Source of the DNA: Candidatus Schekmanbacteria bacterium | GTDB lineage: Bacteria; Schekmanbacteria; GWA2-38-11; J061 | Direction of reading: 5' to 3' | DNA: 64,000 bases | Assembly: GCA_016219965.1 (NCBI GenBank) | Contig: JACRJM010000003.1 | Location: 1 to 64,000, forward strand | Translations under genes and position numbers: made by a program | The notes under the pieces: generated by a model | What the model saw: only the letters and a program-made list of their open reading frames with translations | Databases searched by the model: none | Told to the model about the DNA's origin: nothing | In this document: one piece after another, positions 4,528 through 22,877 of the stretch | How the letters are laid out: each line of letters starts with the position of its first letter | How positions within the stretch are numbered: position 1 is the stretch's first letter

Positions 4528-5082
4528 TTATTTCCCCTGGAAATCTGCTCTGAAACAGCAACAGCCTTCAACAGGGCGACTTTTTGTCATTGAAAGCTCA
4601 ACTTTCAATCCGAGCTTCTTAAACAATTCATCAGAGAAACCTAAACAAAGACTCCTGCATGGAATTTGTTTTGCTTCCCCTTCCCCGATTTCCTCTTTAA
4701 TCCCCTTGTTAATAGTGCAATCCTTTACCTCGATGACAAGGGACTTATGTGAAACCTCCCTGTATTTCCATTCATCAAACGGGCGTAATGCATTAAACCC
4801 TATTTCAAGAAGACGCTGAGGAACACTTGGGAAGACATGACCCGTCTTTGCAGCTACTTCATAAATTACTTTAGCCGTATTATCCCTATAATTACCTTCA
4901 AGCTCAATTATCCGAACTGCCAGATTTCTGCCGTAATCGCCAAAAACCTTTTGAGCTATCTCTCCCTTGTTTACTTTCTCTTTTGCGTCTTCCTCATATT
5001 TCCTAACAACCGCCCCAATGGTAAACTCCTTTTCAAGGATATCAAGAAACTCATCTGGAATACCAAAAGCGTATTTACCCAT
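4528..5082 (-). CDS. Small cysteine-containing protein, possibly ATC-hydrolase-like (copy 1)
   Basis: About 184 residues with no signal peptide or membrane segment. The C-terminal half holds a cysteine pattern: IPCRSLCLGFSDELF, then GCCCFRADF. This spacing recalls the L-2-amino-thiazoline-4-carboxylic acid hydrolase family (PF14196), but that is a recollection-level match and not a firm assignment. It is paralogous to the next gene upstream (5160-5726); shared stretches include NRD(N/R)TA..IYEVA.KTGH(V/I)FP.VPQR. The longer start at 5094 has its RBS too close. ATG at 5082 has GGAG at 6-nt spacing and aligns with the paralog's start. It may bind metal or a cofactor, or process the substrate of the neighbouring oxidases. 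Confidence 0.7.
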   Translation of the reverse strand: MGKYAFGIPDEFLDILEKEFTIGAVVRKYEEDAKEKVNKGEIAQKVFGDYGRNLAVRIIELEGNYRDNTAKVIYEVAAKTGHVFPSVPQRLLEIGFNALRPFDEWKYREVSHKSLVIEVKDCTINKGIKEEIGEGEAKQIPCRSLCLGFSDELFKKLGLKVELSMTKSRPVEGCCCFRADFQGK

Positions 5083-5159
5083 AGTCTTCTCCATTTCCTA
5101 AAAAGGAGTTTTTATCAGGATTCGATTAATACACCAATCATTTAGTTAGTTAGTCGCAA

Positions 5160-5726
5160 TCAATGAAAATGAAAAAAACCGTCAAACTGGCATTTCTTGT
5201 CTTTAGGAAGTTCGGCAACCATCCTTACACCAACATCAAGATTCAAGCCCTGATATATCGTTTCGCTCAAAGCAGTGCAGTAATGCCTGCATGGAAGCGT
5301 GTTTGCGATTTTTTCTCCAACCGCTTCGATGAGAGCCTGGTTCATTGTGCATTTTGAGACAGCATAGGACAACCTCTTAAATGATATTTCTCCCCAGCGC
5401 CACTTATCCTCAACCCTGGTTGCCAGAATACCAATCTCAATCATTCTCTGCGGAACATTCGGGAATATATGTCCTGTCTTTTTTGCAACCTCATATATCT
5501 GCTCTGCTGTCCTGTCCCTGTTATCAGCTTCGGTTTCAAGTATTCTCTTGGCAAGAGACTTGCCATATTCATCAAAAATCTGTTTGCCTATCTCTTCAAT
5601 TTCCTTCTCACTTTTCCCTTTGACGGCATTTGCAAATTTTTCAGCTATTTTCTTTACTCCAAATTCATCATCAAGAGATTGGAAATAAGTTTCATCAATA
5701 AAATACTTCAGGCCTTTTGAGCTCAT
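5160..5726 (-). CDS. Small cysteine-containing protein, possibly ATC-hydrolase-like (copy 2)
   Basis: 188 residues, paralog of the 4528-5082 protein along its whole length. It keeps the first cysteine pair (LPCRHYC) but ends KKCQFDGFFHFH, so the triple-cysteine patch of copy 1 is reduced to a single Cys with two nearby His. The conserved core is ADNRDRTAEQIYEVAKKTGH followed by IFPNVPQRMIEIG. It lies 27 bp after the ferredoxin-flavoprotein fusion gene and 77 bp before its paralog. The altered cysteine set suggests the copies have diverged in ligand or partner rather than being redundant. Confidence 0.7.
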   Translation of the reverse strand: MSSKGLKYFIDETYFQSLDDEFGVKKIAEKFANAVKGKSEKEIEEIGKQIFDEYGKSLAKRILETEADNRDRTAEQIYEVAKKTGHIFPNVPQRMIEIGILATRVEDKWRWGEISFKRLSYAVSKCTMNQALIEAVGEKIANTLPCRHYCTALSETIYQGLNLDVGVRMVAELPKDKKCQFDGFFHFH

Positions 5727-16732: not shown

Positions 16733-17464
16733 TTATTTTTGTTTTACCACGAAATAGTAAAATGTTGCTTTTGAAGGAGCGGGTTTCCATGAGCAGGAAA
16801 ATAATCCAATATTAAGATTAACACCCGGCTGGAATATCAAACTACCGAGCTCTGCCCAGTCAGTACCATCTTTACTGTAATATGCACTAAAATTTTCTCC
16901 ATCTTTCACAAGCTTGAAACTAATCGAATCATCAGTATATCCTGGCTCAGTTCCTTTTACGGACTCTTTTCCGGTAATTCTTCTGAAGTTTATGTCTTCA
17001 TTCTTGGATTTGCATAGAAGCAGAAAATCATTTCTTCCTCTATCATCTGTCCATAAAATTAATCCCCCCTTGTCCGATCCGTTGGATTTAAATTCAAGCT
17101 TTACTTCTGCTTCGAAATTCAACGTACCGTTTATTCTTTTGTATAGCAATGGGGCTGTGAAAGTATCGTACCACATATCAGTATTTCCTGGAGCAATGAT
17201 TATGAGGTTGTCATCTTTTTCAATGAAAATATTAGGATCATTTGAATTCGCCCTCAGCCATGCTTTACTGACAACATCATCATCAAAAGTATCAGTAAGC
17301 GCTGCTGGACCTGTCTGGAGTTTTAAATTCTCAATCTGAGAAGCCTCAGAAGGAGGAAGATCAGTAAAGTGAATCGCTCCCTTTGAATCAGTCCATTTAT
17401 AAATTGCCAAGGCCGGCGATGTTAAGACAAAAAGTAAAATTACAAGAATTATAATATGTTTCAT
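16733..17464 (-). CDS. Secreted DUF4124-domain protein with beta-sandwich domain
   Basis: 243 residues from the ATG at 17464, which overlaps the stop of the upstream gene (ATGA). The longer frame would start inside that gene. A signal peptide (KHIIILVILLFVLTSPALA) is followed directly by a DUF4124 module, YKWTDSKGAIHFTDLPPSE, common in proteobacterial envelope proteins. From about residue 60 there is a beta-sandwich, concanavalin/DUF1349-like region: FEAEVKLEF, GGLILWTDD, FSAYYSKDGTDWAELGS, NIGLFSCS. Such domains bind carbohydrate in other proteins. It is the last gene of the pilin/glycosyltransferase operon. Confidence 0.7.
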   Translation of the reverse strand: MKHIIILVILLFVLTSPALAIYKWTDSKGAIHFTDLPPSEASQIENLKLQTGPAALTDTFDDDVVSKAWLRANSNDPNIFIEKDDNLIIIAPGNTDMWYDTFTAPLLYKRINGTLNFEAEVKLEFKSNGSDKGGLILWTDDRGRNDFLLLCKSKNEDINFRRITGKESVKGTEPGYTDDSISFKLVKDGENFSAYYSKDGTDWAELGSLIFQPGVNLNIGLFSCSWKPAPSKATFYYFVVKQK

Positions 17465-18957
17465 TGCAGGTTTACCTTTCTTTCTGGCAACACTTTGTAT
17501 ATCTTGCAATAAGCATCAGCATAGTCAATCTTAATAGATGGATCCATTTCGACCATTCTTATAAAATTTCCATGCGCATAATCTGTAAAAAGTATTGGAG
17601 TCTTGAAGAGTTTTATAAAAACATCCCTGAGATTCCCTTTATAAGTTCCATTATTTATTTCATTCCATATTTTATACATTTTTTTATCATAAAGGTATAA
17701 AAAGGCCGGGTCAAGTCCAACAAGATAATGGTTATCAGGATTATAAAAATAAAGTTCCGGATAATCATCCCAGTCAGAGAGATAAACTCCCATTCCGATA
17801 TCATTTTCAAGCAACCACTGTAAGCCATTTCTGTATCTGTTGTATTCCCTGCGATCTGAAGAAACTTGGGCCATAGCGGATTGTGTTTGAAATAATAATA
17901 AAAATAGTATTGCTAACGCAGGAATAGCTATACCAAATTTTGAAGGTGCTTTTTTCTTAAAAACTGTAAATTTTAAAAAATCATCAATGCAATCTCTGAA
18001 GGCTAACGATGCAAAGAGCAAAACAAATGGTACTGCAAGCTCAATAAACCTTCTCCATCGCCAGCACATTGCCAGTGACATGACAGAAACTACCAGCATT
18101 GATAACGTATCAATTCCCTTCTTTTTTGTGCTTAATGTTATGAAGTAAATAGATATAAGAAACAAAGCAATCAAAGGAAACTGTCCTGTCATAAATTCTT
18201 CAGGGGTAAAGGATTTCCACTCTCCGCCCCCCTCCACTTCCCTTAACAACCCTGCTGATGTGGTTTGCAAATAAATAAAATTTATATTTAGCGGAAAAAA
18301 AGGGTTTAGAACCAACCCTGTTATAATACCCGCTAAAACGCTCAAGGCGGTTTTATAATCTAACTTCCTGGTAATCCAAAGTTCTGACAATAAAACACCG
18401 GCAAAAACAAGAAAAACAGCAGAAAAACCTCCATAAAGCAAAGGATATAAAAAAGACACGATATAAGTGCTTATATATTTTTTTTTAAGCATTAAATACC
18501 ATATCCATATAAGAACTATCAGAGACGGAACCACTGCCCTTGGAAGCGATAAACGGAAAAGAAAAGTCCCGGAAAGCGATACACAAAGAAGTATCCACAT
18601 AAATGGTGCCGGGACATTCATCTTAAGAAGTATAACAGCTATAGATAATAGCAGTAGAAAATCAAAAAACAGAGATGAATTTTTAGCTCCAACCATAAGA
18701 CCTGAATATGTAAAAGGAATAAGCAGTATATGATAAAGAAAATGATGGTCAACGAAAGTCCCTTCTGGAAAACAAATCAATGAAGGACTTGCCGAAAAAA
18801 TCCCTTTGGTACGCATCTGTTCTGCAATCCTGATGTGATAATAACCATCATAACCAACTATGGACTGCGAAGAATACTGAACTTTATAAAGACAAAATAT
18901 TGCGAGGAGTAAAGAAAAACCTGTTAGAAGGTATTTATTTCGATTAAGAGTCTCCAA
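17461..18957 (-). CDS. Polytopic membrane protein, STT3/GT-C-like
   Basis: 498 residues, about eleven hydrophobic helices plus a soluble tail of about 120 residues. After the first helix it reads VGYDGYYHIRIAEQ, which recalls the D..YH motif in the first loop of oligosaccharyltransferase STT3/AglB. A VDHHFLYH motif follows at about residue 70. This supports a GT-C enzyme but does not prove oligosaccharyl transfer; the WWDxG-type motif is not seen. The likely start is TTG, 6 bp after the TPR lipoprotein stop. It lies in the operon downstream of minor pilins, so pilin glycosylation is a reasonable inference. Confidence 0.6.
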   Translation of the reverse strand: METLNRNKYLLTGFSLLLAIFCLYKVQYSSQSIVGYDGYYHIRIAEQMRTKGIFSASPSLICFPEGTFVDHHFLYHILLIPFTYSGLMVGAKNSSLFFDFLLLLSIAVILLKMNVPAPFMWILLCVSLSGTFLFRLSLPRAVVPSLIVLIWIWYLMLKKKYISTYIVSFLYPLLYGGFSAVFLVFAGVLLSELWITRKLDYKTALSVLAGIITGLVLNPFFPLNINFIYLQTTSAGLLREVEGGGEWKSFTPEEFMTGQFPLIALFLISIYFITLSTKKKGIDTLSMLVVSVMSLAMCWRWRRFIELAVPFVLLFASLAFRDCIDDFLKFTVFKKKAPSKFGIAIPALAILFLLLFQTQSAMAQVSSDRREYNRYRNGLQWLLENDIGMGVYLSDWDDYPELYFYNPDNHYLVGLDPAFLYLYDKKMYKIWNEINNGTYKGNLRDVFIKLFKTPILFTDYAHGNFIRMVEMDPSIKIDYADAYCKIYKVLPERKVNLQ

Positions 18958-18963
18958 CTTTTT

Positions 18964-19884
18964 TTATTCTTTGTTGTTTTTACTCTGATTCATATTTTTA
19001 ATAACTTCAGTTGCATCAGATGATAAAGAACTATTGGGAAACCGCTTGATAAGGTCATTAAGTACTTTAACAGCACTTCTGAAATTTTCAGTCTCCCTTG
19101 CTCTGTCCTTTCTGGCTTGCGCTATGGCTTCCTTCCTTTCACCTTCAAATTCTTTTACATTATCCCATGAATTGTAAAACTTTTCCAGTGATTCTGCCCT
19201 GTTCCCAAACATCTGCGCTGCCTTTCTCCTTTGCTCTGCAAGCCAAAACATCGCCTCCGGAGCTTCCTCAGAACCCGGATATAAAGTCAAAACTTTTTCA
19301 ACTTCTTTTAATCCTTCTGATTCCTGATGCAAAAAATCTACTTTTATAATTCCTATCTTTAATTGAGCCATGGAATCATATTCTGAATGAAAATCATTAT
19401 CCATGACTTGCTGAAGCTCATTTACAGCTTTTCCATATTCCTTTGCCAAAAGAAGAAGCATTGCCTTATGATATCTTATGCGGTCTTGAACTTCTCCCTC
19501 TTTATGCTTAAGAAAAATAGTATCTATTTCCCGCATAGCTGCCATAAACAAAGTATCGCTTCCACTTAAGCTGTTTCCAGCAAGAAAGTTCGCTACATCT
19601 ATATCACCTACCATGGTTGAATAATTCTTTTTTATCTCAAATGTTTTCCTAAAAGCTTTGAGAGCTTTAGAAGAATCATCGTTTTTTAGCGAGGAAAAGC
19701 CTAACAGATAATAAACTATAGGATCATTAGGGTATTGAGTTGTTAATTTATCAAGCGTTAGAACGGCAAGAGGGTAATTACCAGTGTCTATTGTTTTTTC
19801 AATGTTCTCAAGTTCATCGCGGCTTATGCGTGTACATCCTGAGAGCAGGAACATGACAAGTAACAAAAAAAATATTCTTTTCAA
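18964..19884 (-). CDS. TPR-repeat lipoprotein
   Basis: 306 residues from a TTG start. A lipoprotein signal ends in the lipobox LLSG-C (Cys17). Tetratricopeptide-like helices follow: GNYPLAVLTLDKLTTQYPND with PIVYYLLGFSSLK, then a YGKAVNELQQVMD block and a YPGSEEAPEAMFWLAEQ block. A final repeat is NDLIKRFPNSSLSSDATEVI. The arrangement resembles outer-membrane lipoproteins such as BamD/YfgL partners or pilotin-type proteins (PilF). It lies between the secreted mini-proteins and the STT3-like gene and may help assemble or localise the pilus or the mini-proteins. Confidence 0.7.
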   Translation of the reverse strand: MKRIFFLLLVMFLLSGCTRISRDELENIEKTIDTGNYPLAVLTLDKLTTQYPNDPIVYYLLGFSSLKNDDSSKALKAFRKTFEIKKNYSTMVGDIDVANFLAGNSLSGSDTLFMAAMREIDTIFLKHKEGEVQDRIRYHKAMLLLLAKEYGKAVNELQQVMDNDFHSEYDSMAQLKIGIIKVDFLHQESEGLKEVEKVLTLYPGSEEAPEAMFWLAEQRRKAAQMFGNRAESLEKFYNSWDNVKEFEGERKEAIAQARKDRARETENFRSAVKVLNDLIKRFPNSSLSSDATEVIKNMNQSKNNKE

Positions 19885-19965: not shown

Positions 19966-20154
19966 TTACTTAACTTCGTGCCAGTTCTTAATGGTAGTAG
20001 TGGGTGTAAAAGGAGTTGTGCCCCCGGCATTAGCATTTAAACTACTCGAATTATCATTGCTGTCACTTTCAGCAGAGGCAACACTGAATAAAATAGTCCC
20101 ACCTACTGTAATCACAGCTGTTGATATTAATAATACCTTAAAAAATTTTAGCAT
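19966..20154 (-). CDS. Secreted mini-protein with C-terminal IKNWHEVK (copy 1)
   Basis: 62 residues. Signal peptide: basic MLKFFK, hydrophobic stretch, ASA-type cleavage site near residue 28. The predicted mature part is about 34 residues: a Ser/Asn/Gly/Thr-rich acidic linker ending in TTIKNWHEVK. Its start has a strong RBS (GAGGAG, 7 nt). The neighbouring gene (20179-20376) encodes a paralog with the same layout, where only the signal and the last eight residues are conserved. No known family is recognised. The C-terminal motif may be a receptor-binding or processing signal. Confidence 0.75.
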   Translation of the reverse strand: MLKFFKVLLISTAVITVGGTILFSVASAESDSNDNSSSLNANAGGTTPFTPTTTIKNWHEVK

Positions 20155-20178
20155 TTTTTTTCTCCTCTATTTATTTCA

Positions 20179-20376
20179 TTACTTAATTTCATGCCAGTTC
20201 TTTATAACTGTACTTGGAACATCAATATTGCTTCCTCCGTTTACATTCATATTGGAGCTGACTGCTGACGAATTCTCATCGCTGCTTGAATCTGCAAATG
20301 TCATAGTCATTGACAATAACATTGTAGAAATAAAAAGAATTACGGGGATAATAACAATTTTAATAATTTTTAACAT
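20179..20376 (-). CDS. Secreted mini-protein with C-terminal IKNWHEIK (copy 2)
   Basis: 65 residues. Signal peptide (MLKIIK then a long hydrophobic run, cleavage likely after TFA near residue 28), a Ser/Asn-rich acidic mature part (DSSSDENSSA...) and the C-terminus VIKNWHEIK. The Trp-His pair and the flanking KN/E residues match copy 1, while codons differ silently (CAC/CAT, ATT/ATA), so the motif is under selection. RBS GAGGAG sits 6 nt before the ATG. It lies 30 bp after the PilX-like gene and 24 bp before copy 1. Confidence 0.75.
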   Translation of the reverse strand: MLKIIKIVIIPVILFISTMLLSMTMTFADSSSDENSSAVSSNMNVNGGSNIDVPSTVIKNWHEIK

Positions 20377-20406
20377 GCGAACTCCTCATTTTGAGTTTTC
20401 ATGATT

Positions 20407-21480
20407 CTACCATTTATTGTATGAATTTGAAACCCATGTTCCGCTAGTAGATGAAGAAGGGTTTCCCGAAGATCTGGTAAGTGAACTTATATCAACCAGT
20501 TCTACTTTGTAAATTTGCCCATTACTTAATGATAACGATGGTGCTCCTGACGTATCGGGTATATAGTCTCCACCGCTTGGAATACACACCGGTTCTTCTC
20601 CGGATCCACCGTAGGGTGTGTAGCGATATCCATGCGTGTTGCTGAGACAGAAGGTCTTATTTACAGTGTTCACTTCAGCTTCCCCGACTATCGTCCACCC
20701 GGGAGTTGAGATATTGTTATCAATATCCCTATAAATAATGATTGCTTTGTCTGTACTGTCATTGGTACATATGCCGGTTATTTTACTCAAGGCCGGATCT
20801 ATACCTAAATCATAACCCTGCGCTCCTATCACAACATTATTGCTAGTTATATTATCAATATCAGTAGTAGTACTTGTCGGGTTCTTAAAAGTTTGGAAGA
20901 AAAGAAAGTTGTTTTCGAATTTAACCTCTATATCAGCTTCAATTTGTTTAGTAGTAGATATCTCCGATGTAGAGACAAATTGAGATTGCACTTTACGGAA
21001 TGTTATCGATGTTGGATTTGACCAAAGCCATTGCAGACGGGGAATGGTTATTTTAGAAGAATTTCTCCCCACAGAAATTCTTTTGCAAATACTCCAGGCG
21101 GTATCAGCATTACTTGTACTCAAAAGCGTACTTAAACTGCCATTAATATACCATGTTGTATCAACCCAGTTAAGCGGATTCATAATAGTTGTTCTCGGAG
21201 ACTGCCCTATTGTATAAATCTGTGTATTATTGCCTGTTCCGCTCGACCCTGAGAAATTGCTGACAGCGCTTGTTTTAAGATTCCCTTCTGTAATCTCCAT
21301 TCCTCCTTCAGCAGTGTAAAGGGCGTCTGTTGATGTTTTTAAATTTCCAGAGATTTTAAGCTCAGTAGATGTAATCATTACTGCACCTAACCCGAGAACG
21401 GTTAACATTACCAGTATAAGCATGGCTATAACGAGAACCATACCTCTCTCATTTTTTAATATTTTTGATAATTTTACCAT
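20407..21480 (-). CDS. PilX-like minor pilin assembly protein
   Basis: 357 residues. The N-terminus has the PilX pattern: ERGMVLVIAMLILVMLTVLG, a Glu-containing hydrophobic helix without a classical prepilin FTLIE, then STDALYTAEGGME. In type IV pilus systems PilX-type proteins join PilV/PilW minor pilins in priming assembly. The remaining 280 residues are a poorly conserved, Ser/Thr/Asn-rich globular region. It overlaps the PilW-like gene by one base (TAATG-type junction) and is followed by the secreted mini-proteins. Confidence 0.75.
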   Translation of the reverse strand: MVKLSKILKNERGMVLVIAMLILVMLTVLGLGAVMITSTELKISGNLKTSTDALYTAEGGMEITEGNLKTSAVSNFSGSSGTGNNTQIYTIGQSPRTTIMNPLNWVDTTWYINGSLSTLLSTSNADTAWSICKRISVGRNSSKITIPRLQWLWSNPTSITFRKVQSQFVSTSEISTTKQIEADIEVKFENNFLFFQTFKNPTSTTTDIDNITSNNVVIGAQGYDLGIDPALSKITGICTNDSTDKAIIIYRDIDNNISTPGWTIVGEAEVNTVNKTFCLSNTHGYRYTPYGGSGEEPVCIPSGGDYIPDTSGAPSLSLSNGQIYKVELVDISSLTRSSGNPSSSTSGTWVSNSYNKW

Positions 21481-22385
21481 TAATCCGATCCTATATTCCT
21501 TAATTTAATATCAGATTCAAGAGTTATTCTGTGATAACGGTCACTATATGTATCCCCGCAGTTATACGTTCCGCTGTCCTTATAATATGGATCCTCTCTC
21601 ATTGTACGCGCAATAACAAGCACCTTAATCTTCCTTACACTATTTTTCTCTGATGAACTAAGGGCAACTCCCTTATATGGAGTCACACTCCCGAGCAGAT
21701 TATCGTTTTCATCATAATACTTGAACTCAAGATAGTCAATATCATCAACTACAGGTTGGGCTGAGCCTCCATCAATACTTCTTGTTATCTTATTAGTTGA
21801 TGTTGATGTGGAGTGAAGATGATTGGAAGGACTTTGCGAGAAAGTAATTGAATGTATGACATGGAGGACTGAGCCTGCCGGAAAATAATCTGTAAGAGGT
21901 GTTATAGTGAGACTCCCTACAGCGCTTGCTGATATCATAGTGGAATTCCATTTATAACCGTCAGTTATATAAATAGTGTCTCCTGCTGAAAAACGTCCAT
22001 AGTAGTAGGAAGAGGAACTGTCGCTGACGGTATTGACAGAAAGCGTTGTTCCCGGCGCAGTATAGTCTGAAACAAGACTCGCACTTACATCATCCATATC
22101 AACTTTGAAAGTTATGCTATTCTCCGTTGCAGAAGTTATGGCTTCAATGGCTGATGGGTTACTAACAGTTGGAATACCATAACCCATAGTTCTTAAATCC
22201 CTCACCATTGTATCCAATGCAGTCCTTACATTCTGCTGCATCTCGACTATAAGGTCCTGCGAGTTGTATGTTTTTTGCTGACTGGTAAATAAGGAATAGA
22301 GAGTAACTAATATTATTGATGCCAATACTACGGAAACCATTATCTCTATAAGAGTAAACCCCTTATATGATTTAGCATTTTTCAT
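21480..22385 (-). CDS. PilW-like minor pilin
   Basis: 301 residues with a classical type IV prepilin start: basic leader MKNAKSYKG then FTLIEIMVSVVLASIILVTL, cleaved by PilD after the Gly. SLFTSQQKTYNSQDLIVEMQ and VRTALDTMVRDLRTMGYG are the standard PilW continuation. The C-terminal part is a beta-rich head. Together with the PilV-like and PilX-like neighbours it would form the minor-pilin tip complex of a type IV pilus or a related secretion pseudopilus. Confidence 0.85.
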   Translation of the reverse strand: MKNAKSYKGFTLIEIMVSVVLASIILVTLYSLFTSQQKTYNSQDLIVEMQQNVRTALDTMVRDLRTMGYGIPTVSNPSAIEAITSATENSITFKVDMDDVSASLVSDYTAPGTTLSVNTVSDSSSSYYYGRFSAGDTIYITDGYKWNSTMISASAVGSLTITPLTDYFPAGSVLHVIHSITFSQSPSNHLHSTSTSTNKITRSIDGGSAQPVVDDIDYLEFKYYDENDNLLGSVTPYKGVALSSSEKNSVRKIKVLVIARTMREDPYYKDSGTYNCGDTYSDRYHRITLESDIKLRNIGSD

Positions 22386-22394
22386 TTGAAATTC

Positions 22395-22877
22395 TCACTC
22401 TGCAATGGCTGTGGTAAAGGATATGCTATGTGCGCCGTTGTCCTGCCATGTAATAATAACCTCAACAGTTTTTATTCCGCTCGAAGGAATATTGTTAGCC
22501 ACATTCCATATCCTGTTATAATATCCACCTGCTTCCCCATTTTCATCAATGCCTTCCTCACTGTGATCAATCGATGTGGTACTGCTAAGATTGAAATTAT
22601 TTGATGCGTTTGTATCTTCAAGTTCAGAATCGGTAAAAGGCTTATTCTTGAGTTCTTCGATTTTCGTCTGAGCTAAGGCAATTGCAGTGGTAGTCTTTTT
22701 GCTCGACACATTGCCCTTTATAACTGTAGTCACAAGACCTGCTATTGAAAGGAGGCCAACCGCCAGTATAACTATGGATACCAATATCTCTATGAAAGTA
22801 AAACCATCCTGTCTTTTTCTGTTTACATGTATTTCACTCATAACTATGCCCATTATGTGCTGGGTGTTTTCGTTCAT
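22395..22877 (-). CDS. PilV-like minor pilin
   Basis: 160 residues at most. Prepilin motif: KRQDG then FTFIEILVSIVILAVGLLSI, followed by AGLVTTVIKGN and IALAQTKIEELKNKPF, a typical PilV layout. Internal ATGs at codons 9 and 13 are possible starts and none has a strong RBS; the 24-residue leader of the longest form is unusually long, so a shorter start is likely. It is the first gene of the pilin operon and is divergent from the YihY-like gene. Confidence 0.82.
   Translation of the reverse strand: MNENTQHIMGIVMSEIHVNRKRQDGFTFIEILVSIVILAVGLLSIAGLVTTVIKGNVSSKKTTTAIALAQTKIEELKNKPFTDSELEDTNASNNFNLSSTTSIDHSEEGIDENGEAGGYYNRIWNVANNIPSSGIKTVEVIITWQDNGAHSISFTTAIAE

Follow-up and report, generated by a model that had tools for sequence, protein, structure and literature searches.

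The locus described here invites comparison with two known systems. The first is the type IVa minor-pilin operon of Pseudomonas, fimU-pilVWXY1E, in which the gene of PilY1 is found together with those of the minor pilins (PMC5979040). The second is the RRNPP family, for which a computational signature of five points has been published (PMC10075063). The window, i.e. the whole stretch of 64,000 nucleotides that was analysed (positions 1 to 64,000 of contig JACRJM010000003.1, Candidatus Schekmanbacteria), resembles the Pseudomonas operon in that PilV-, PilW- and PilX-like genes follow one another in order and the PilT family is present in the genome. Each of the four phylum genomes that were compared (the window's own genome, G000, and three others, G001, G002 and G003) has a PilT-family ATPase that scores above the cut-off, and three of them have two such genes in tandem (G000:C4:526594-528681, G001:C130 and G002:C7). 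A further likeness is the GspH/FimT-like gene that comes first, ahead of pilV, in G002. There are two differences. Firstly, no PilY1 was recognised in the four phylum genomes, where the search for the PilY1 domain PF05567 gave 0 positives while the same search was positive in 19 of 116 genomes of a wider sample. Secondly, pilX is followed here by one or two short proteins that are predicted to be exported, then by a TPR lipoprotein and a polytopic membrane protein. The features of the locus are as follows.

17461..18957, minus strand: polytopic membrane protein that resembles GT-C enzymes in appearance only; G001 and G002 have it in the corresponding position
18964..19884, minus strand: predicted TPR lipoprotein (BamD/YfiO-like repeats), directly downstream of the small genes
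19966..20154, minus strand: predicted small exported protein, copy a (TPR-proximal), P0001, 62 aa
19969..19992, minus strand: codons for the tail IKNWHEVK of copy a, KNWHE being invariant in 5/5 genes
20162..20167, minus strand: Shine-Dalgarno sequence GAGGAG for copy a
20179..20376, minus strand: predicted small exported protein, copy b (PilX-proximal), P0002, 65 aa, with relatives in G001 and G002
20182..20205, minus strand: codons for the tail IKNWHEIK of copy b, with the same invariant KNWHE
20382..20386, minus strand: Shine-Dalgarno sequence AGGAG for copy b
20407..21480, minus strand: PilX-like minor pilin, directly upstream of the small genes (PF14341 PilX_N, 2.9e-10)
21480..22385, minus strand: PilW-like minor pilin (N_methyl above cut-off; PilW 9.7e-5, just below cut-off)
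22395..22877, minus strand: PilV-like minor pilin, the operon's first gene in the window (N_methyl; TIGR02523 PilV 3.5e-13, 50.2 bits against a cut-off of 52.2)

The initial annotation had described two tandem ORFs of 62 and 65 residues between the minor pilins and a TPR lipoprotein, and both the ORFs and their place were confirmed on the minus strand, with pilX directly upstream and the TPR gene directly downstream. The two proteins match each other over their full length (E 3.7e-8) and share one layout, i.e. a lysine-containing hydrophobic N-terminal signal sequence, a Ser/Asn-rich stretch and the tail IKNWHE(I/V)K. The tail was said to be the same eight residues in both copies; seven of the eight are identical and one differs (V/I). 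Accordingly, the codon differences that had been described as silent are so at Ile (ATT/ATA) and His (CAC/CAT), while GTT/ATT alters the residue. The linker is Ser/Asn-rich as described, though clearly acidic in the window's genome only. The claim that only the ends are conserved did not hold, as the segments N.NVN..GG and P-[ST]-T, ahead of the tail, recur as well, and the five relatives from three genomes are 37-49% identical overall. Neither protein has a match above the curated cut-off in Pfam or NCBIfam, the best scores being far below it. A prepilin motif for N-terminal cleavage and methylation was not found in them either (no N_methyl match, no GFxxxE-type motif), nor was the PilY1 C-terminal domain PF05567. 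The literature yielded nothing relevant on the tail or on small proteins of this kind.

Relatives were sought in 98 and then in 290 genomes. Tail-bearing relatives were found in only two of the three other phylum genomes, G001 and G002; outside the order the 290 genomes gave two weak matches, both within long frames. G001, which belongs to the same family as the window's genome, has a tandem pair of 61 aa each, ending in STTIKNWHEVK and NSTIKNWHEVN, and G002, from another family of the same order, has one copy of 52 aa ending in STKVKNWHE. Absence of relatives, or relatives with a tail that is not conserved, had been proposed as the outcome that would count against the tail; instead, tail-bearing relatives lie at the same place of the operon in two genomes. 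The most similar copies are the TPR-proximal ones of G000 and G001, with 49% identity and an identical tail IKNWHEVK. They also have PFTP[ST]TT in common, and the single copy of G002 has the similar PYTPST. For these reasons the tandem duplication may be older than the split of the G000 and G001 genera. No relatives were found among phage records, nor in small-protein and PilX alignment scans of the sets genome_contigs and viral_contigs, which may omit near relatives. The small gene is present in 3/3 phylum genomes that have PilX and TPR orthologs; in the fourth, which is 70% complete, the small gene, the PilX ortholog and the TPR ortholog are all absent. The family, known from only three independent loci, is real, restricted to one lineage, and belongs to no described family.

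G000, G001 and G002 share the gene order pilV-pilW-pilX-small gene (one or two copies)-TPR lipoprotein-polytopic membrane protein, and the place of the small gene between pilX and the TPR lipoprotein gene is kept in three genera. In G001 and G002, too, the PilX ortholog lies next to the small genes; PilX orthologs have 55-65% identity in their C-terminal region, and TPR orthologs 36-41%. The small gene of G002 has its stop codon immediately before the GTG of the longest TPR frame, and the minus strand from pilV to the TPR gene showed no terminator-like site.

The conservation of the tail is that of a protein. All five genes have KNWHE unchanged, while the last two residues vary (VK, IK or VN) and are missing in G002. 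Among 60 codon comparisons of IKNWHE in the five genes, 41 codons are identical, 15 differ silently and 4 change the amino acid (I/V); the differences fall on the three codon positions as 4/0/16, and those of the signal region as 29/48/201. This pattern indicates purifying selection on the protein sequence, and the small genes are real protein-coding genes under such selection, which is strongest on IKNWHE. Chance can be excluded since there are five genes in three genomes with a conserved gene order. That the frames are spurious, or that a conserved element of RNA or DNA has been taken for protein, would be in keeping with their shortness and the lack of a Pfam or NCBIfam family. Against this, full-length relatives occur with the gene order preserved and all five start codons are preceded by a Shine-Dalgarno-like sequence, and the codon-position pattern of the tail rules out an RNA or DNA element, which makes the explanation extremely improbable. 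An antisense ORF (19991-20404) was also considered and dropped, as its frame is not kept open in all relatives.

We therefore have a conserved small-protein family in search of a role, and our preferred reading, held tentatively with a probability of roughly 0.45, is that of a tandem-duplicated family of exported proteins that serve as accessories of the type IV pilus and dock by their tail on a partner that is encoded in the same operon and lies outside the cytoplasm. Removal of the signal peptide would leave a flexible peptide of 27-37 residues, whose PSTTIKNWHE end could be the docking motif and whose Ser/Asn-rich part could act as a spacer. TPRs commonly hold extended peptides, and for this reason, together with the adjacency of the genes, the TPR lipoprotein would be the partner of first choice, with PSTTIKNWHEVK as the candidate docking peptide for its TPR domain; the second choice would be the PilV/W/X tip complex. 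Any effect would be on pilus assembly or function, although membership of the operon does not by itself establish a role in the pilus. Docking was looked for with two fused-chain AlphaFold models, each obtained by reading from one gene through into the next in frame. The mean pLDDT was 48 for the peptide with the TPR protein and 37 for PilX with the peptide, and these models were set aside as being of low confidence.

The putative partner is a protein of 306 aa with PF13525 (YfiO), PF13174 (TPR_6) and PF07719 (TPR_2) above cut-off. Its N-terminal signal contains the lipobox LSGC, the Cys of which is invariant in three orthologs; the lipid-attachment model gives 19.9 bits against a cut-off of 20, so that the lipoprotein assignment is a prediction. 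The YfiO model and the lipid-attachment Cys liken this neighbour, not the small proteins themselves, to BamD/YfiO, but it remains below the BamD cut-off of NCBIfam (62.8 vs 81.4 bits) and a role in BAM or as a pilotin is putative.

Whether the small proteins are released at all depends on the signal sequence, whose Sec-type features were assigned by eye. The hydrophobic N-terminal stretch is long in 5/5 proteins and some of them (e.g. IISA in G002) have weak -3/-1 residues at the probable cleavage site, as would be expected of small single-pass inner-membrane proteins that keep their signal and regulate the assembly platform or the minor pilins with a periplasmic tail. In P0001, however, the A-x-A site is clear (SVASA|ES, cleavage again judged by eye), and we find this alternative unlikely.

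Another reading starts from the Ser/Asn-rich middle part and from the polytopic membrane protein at 17461-18957, which occupies the same place in three genomes, is 41% identical to its G002 counterpart and carries the motifs GYDGYYH and DWDDYPELYFYN. No Pfam or PDB match was found for this protein by sequence, and it is possibly an undescribed GT-C-like enzyme. If it modified the Ser/Asn-rich part, the products might be glycosylated or adhesive surface peptides that coat or cap the pilus. The activity of the membrane protein is a guess, though, given the lack of a sequence match to Pfam or to a solved structure; moreover, the N-X-S/T sequons are not common to all five members, and the invariant KNWHE would be left unexplained. 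We regard this reading as unlikely. Directly after the gene of the membrane protein there is a DUF4124 and DUF1349 (concanavalin-like) protein (16733-17509), the longest frame of which overlaps the end of the membrane protein gene.

The tail itself had been taken for either a secreted signal or a processing tag. Of this proposal, the existence of tail-bearing relatives stands, while the tag is not supported. Pattern searches of the four phylum genomes with KNWHE, WHE near the stop and W.E.K-stop did not bring up any unrelated gene family in which the tail is conserved. KNWHE, searched as AARAAYTGGCAYGAR, gave six sites, i.e. the five small genes and one site inside a methyltransferase-like ORF (G000:C7:124206), whose internal NWHE was put down to chance. 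The W.E.K-stop pattern yielded no further exported protein in the window's genome. Since only the small genes conserve the KNWHE/WHE end, a general tag finds no support, and a C-terminal sorting tag of the PEP-CTERM kind, for which a genome should carry the tail on a number of unrelated exported proteins, was rejected. Apart from the small genes, the one real gene with a WHExK end codes for an exported YtkA-like protein, about 160 aa long (G000:C3:603074-603550, L076), which ends in KFWHELK; its relatives end in KFWHEIK in G002:C38 (L077) and in KFWEDIK/KFWYEVK in G001:C126 (L078) and G003:C45 (L079), i.e. WHE is not conserved among them.

The secreted-signal reading leads back to the RRNPP systems. 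In an RRNPP-like pair, the C-terminal residues would, once released, serve as a communication peptide with the adjacent TPR protein as its receptor. As far as the published signature can be applied, the locus agrees with it: a short propeptide with an apparent Sec-type signal (by eye) and a conserved C-terminus, whose 62 and 65 aa are inside the range of 10-100 aa, lies next to a gene whose product has TPRs above cut-off and falls within the receptor range of 250-500 aa, and the conserved residues are the last ones. On the other hand, the TPR protein has no DNA-binding domain, and its predicted lipid anchor would place it outside the cytoplasm, whereas RRNPP receptors are cytosolic. In addition, the last two residues of the tail vary or are missing, the tail is invariant rather than diversified, and pilV, pilW and pilX belong to the same operon. 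We consider an RRNPP-like pair very improbable. More generally, a tail that hardly differs between paralogs or between the two families is unlike a species-specific signal, and together with the predicted lipoprotein nature of the TPR neighbour this makes a secreted signal unlikely. A variant that would accommodate the location of the receptor is that the secreted peptides with their invariant tail are read by the TPR lipoprotein in the envelope and control pilus assembly or surface sensing where no PilY1 is recognisable; this we hold to be decidedly unlikely.

Returning to the docking of an accessory peptide, the place of the family deserves attention. Within a type IV pilus operon, an undescribed family of small proteins is encoded where the model system has the gene of PilY1, in a lineage in which PilY1 was not recognised, and it may bear on how the pilus tip is primed without PilY1. 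If the reading is true, an exported peptide of 27-37 residues with a fixed docking end is an object that can be readily tested. A second pair of neighbouring frames was noted elsewhere in the window: two consecutive ORFs (4528-5094 and 5160-5726), with no Pfam match at 1e-8 and 188 aa each, are situated between genes for FAD and Fe-S oxidoreductases.
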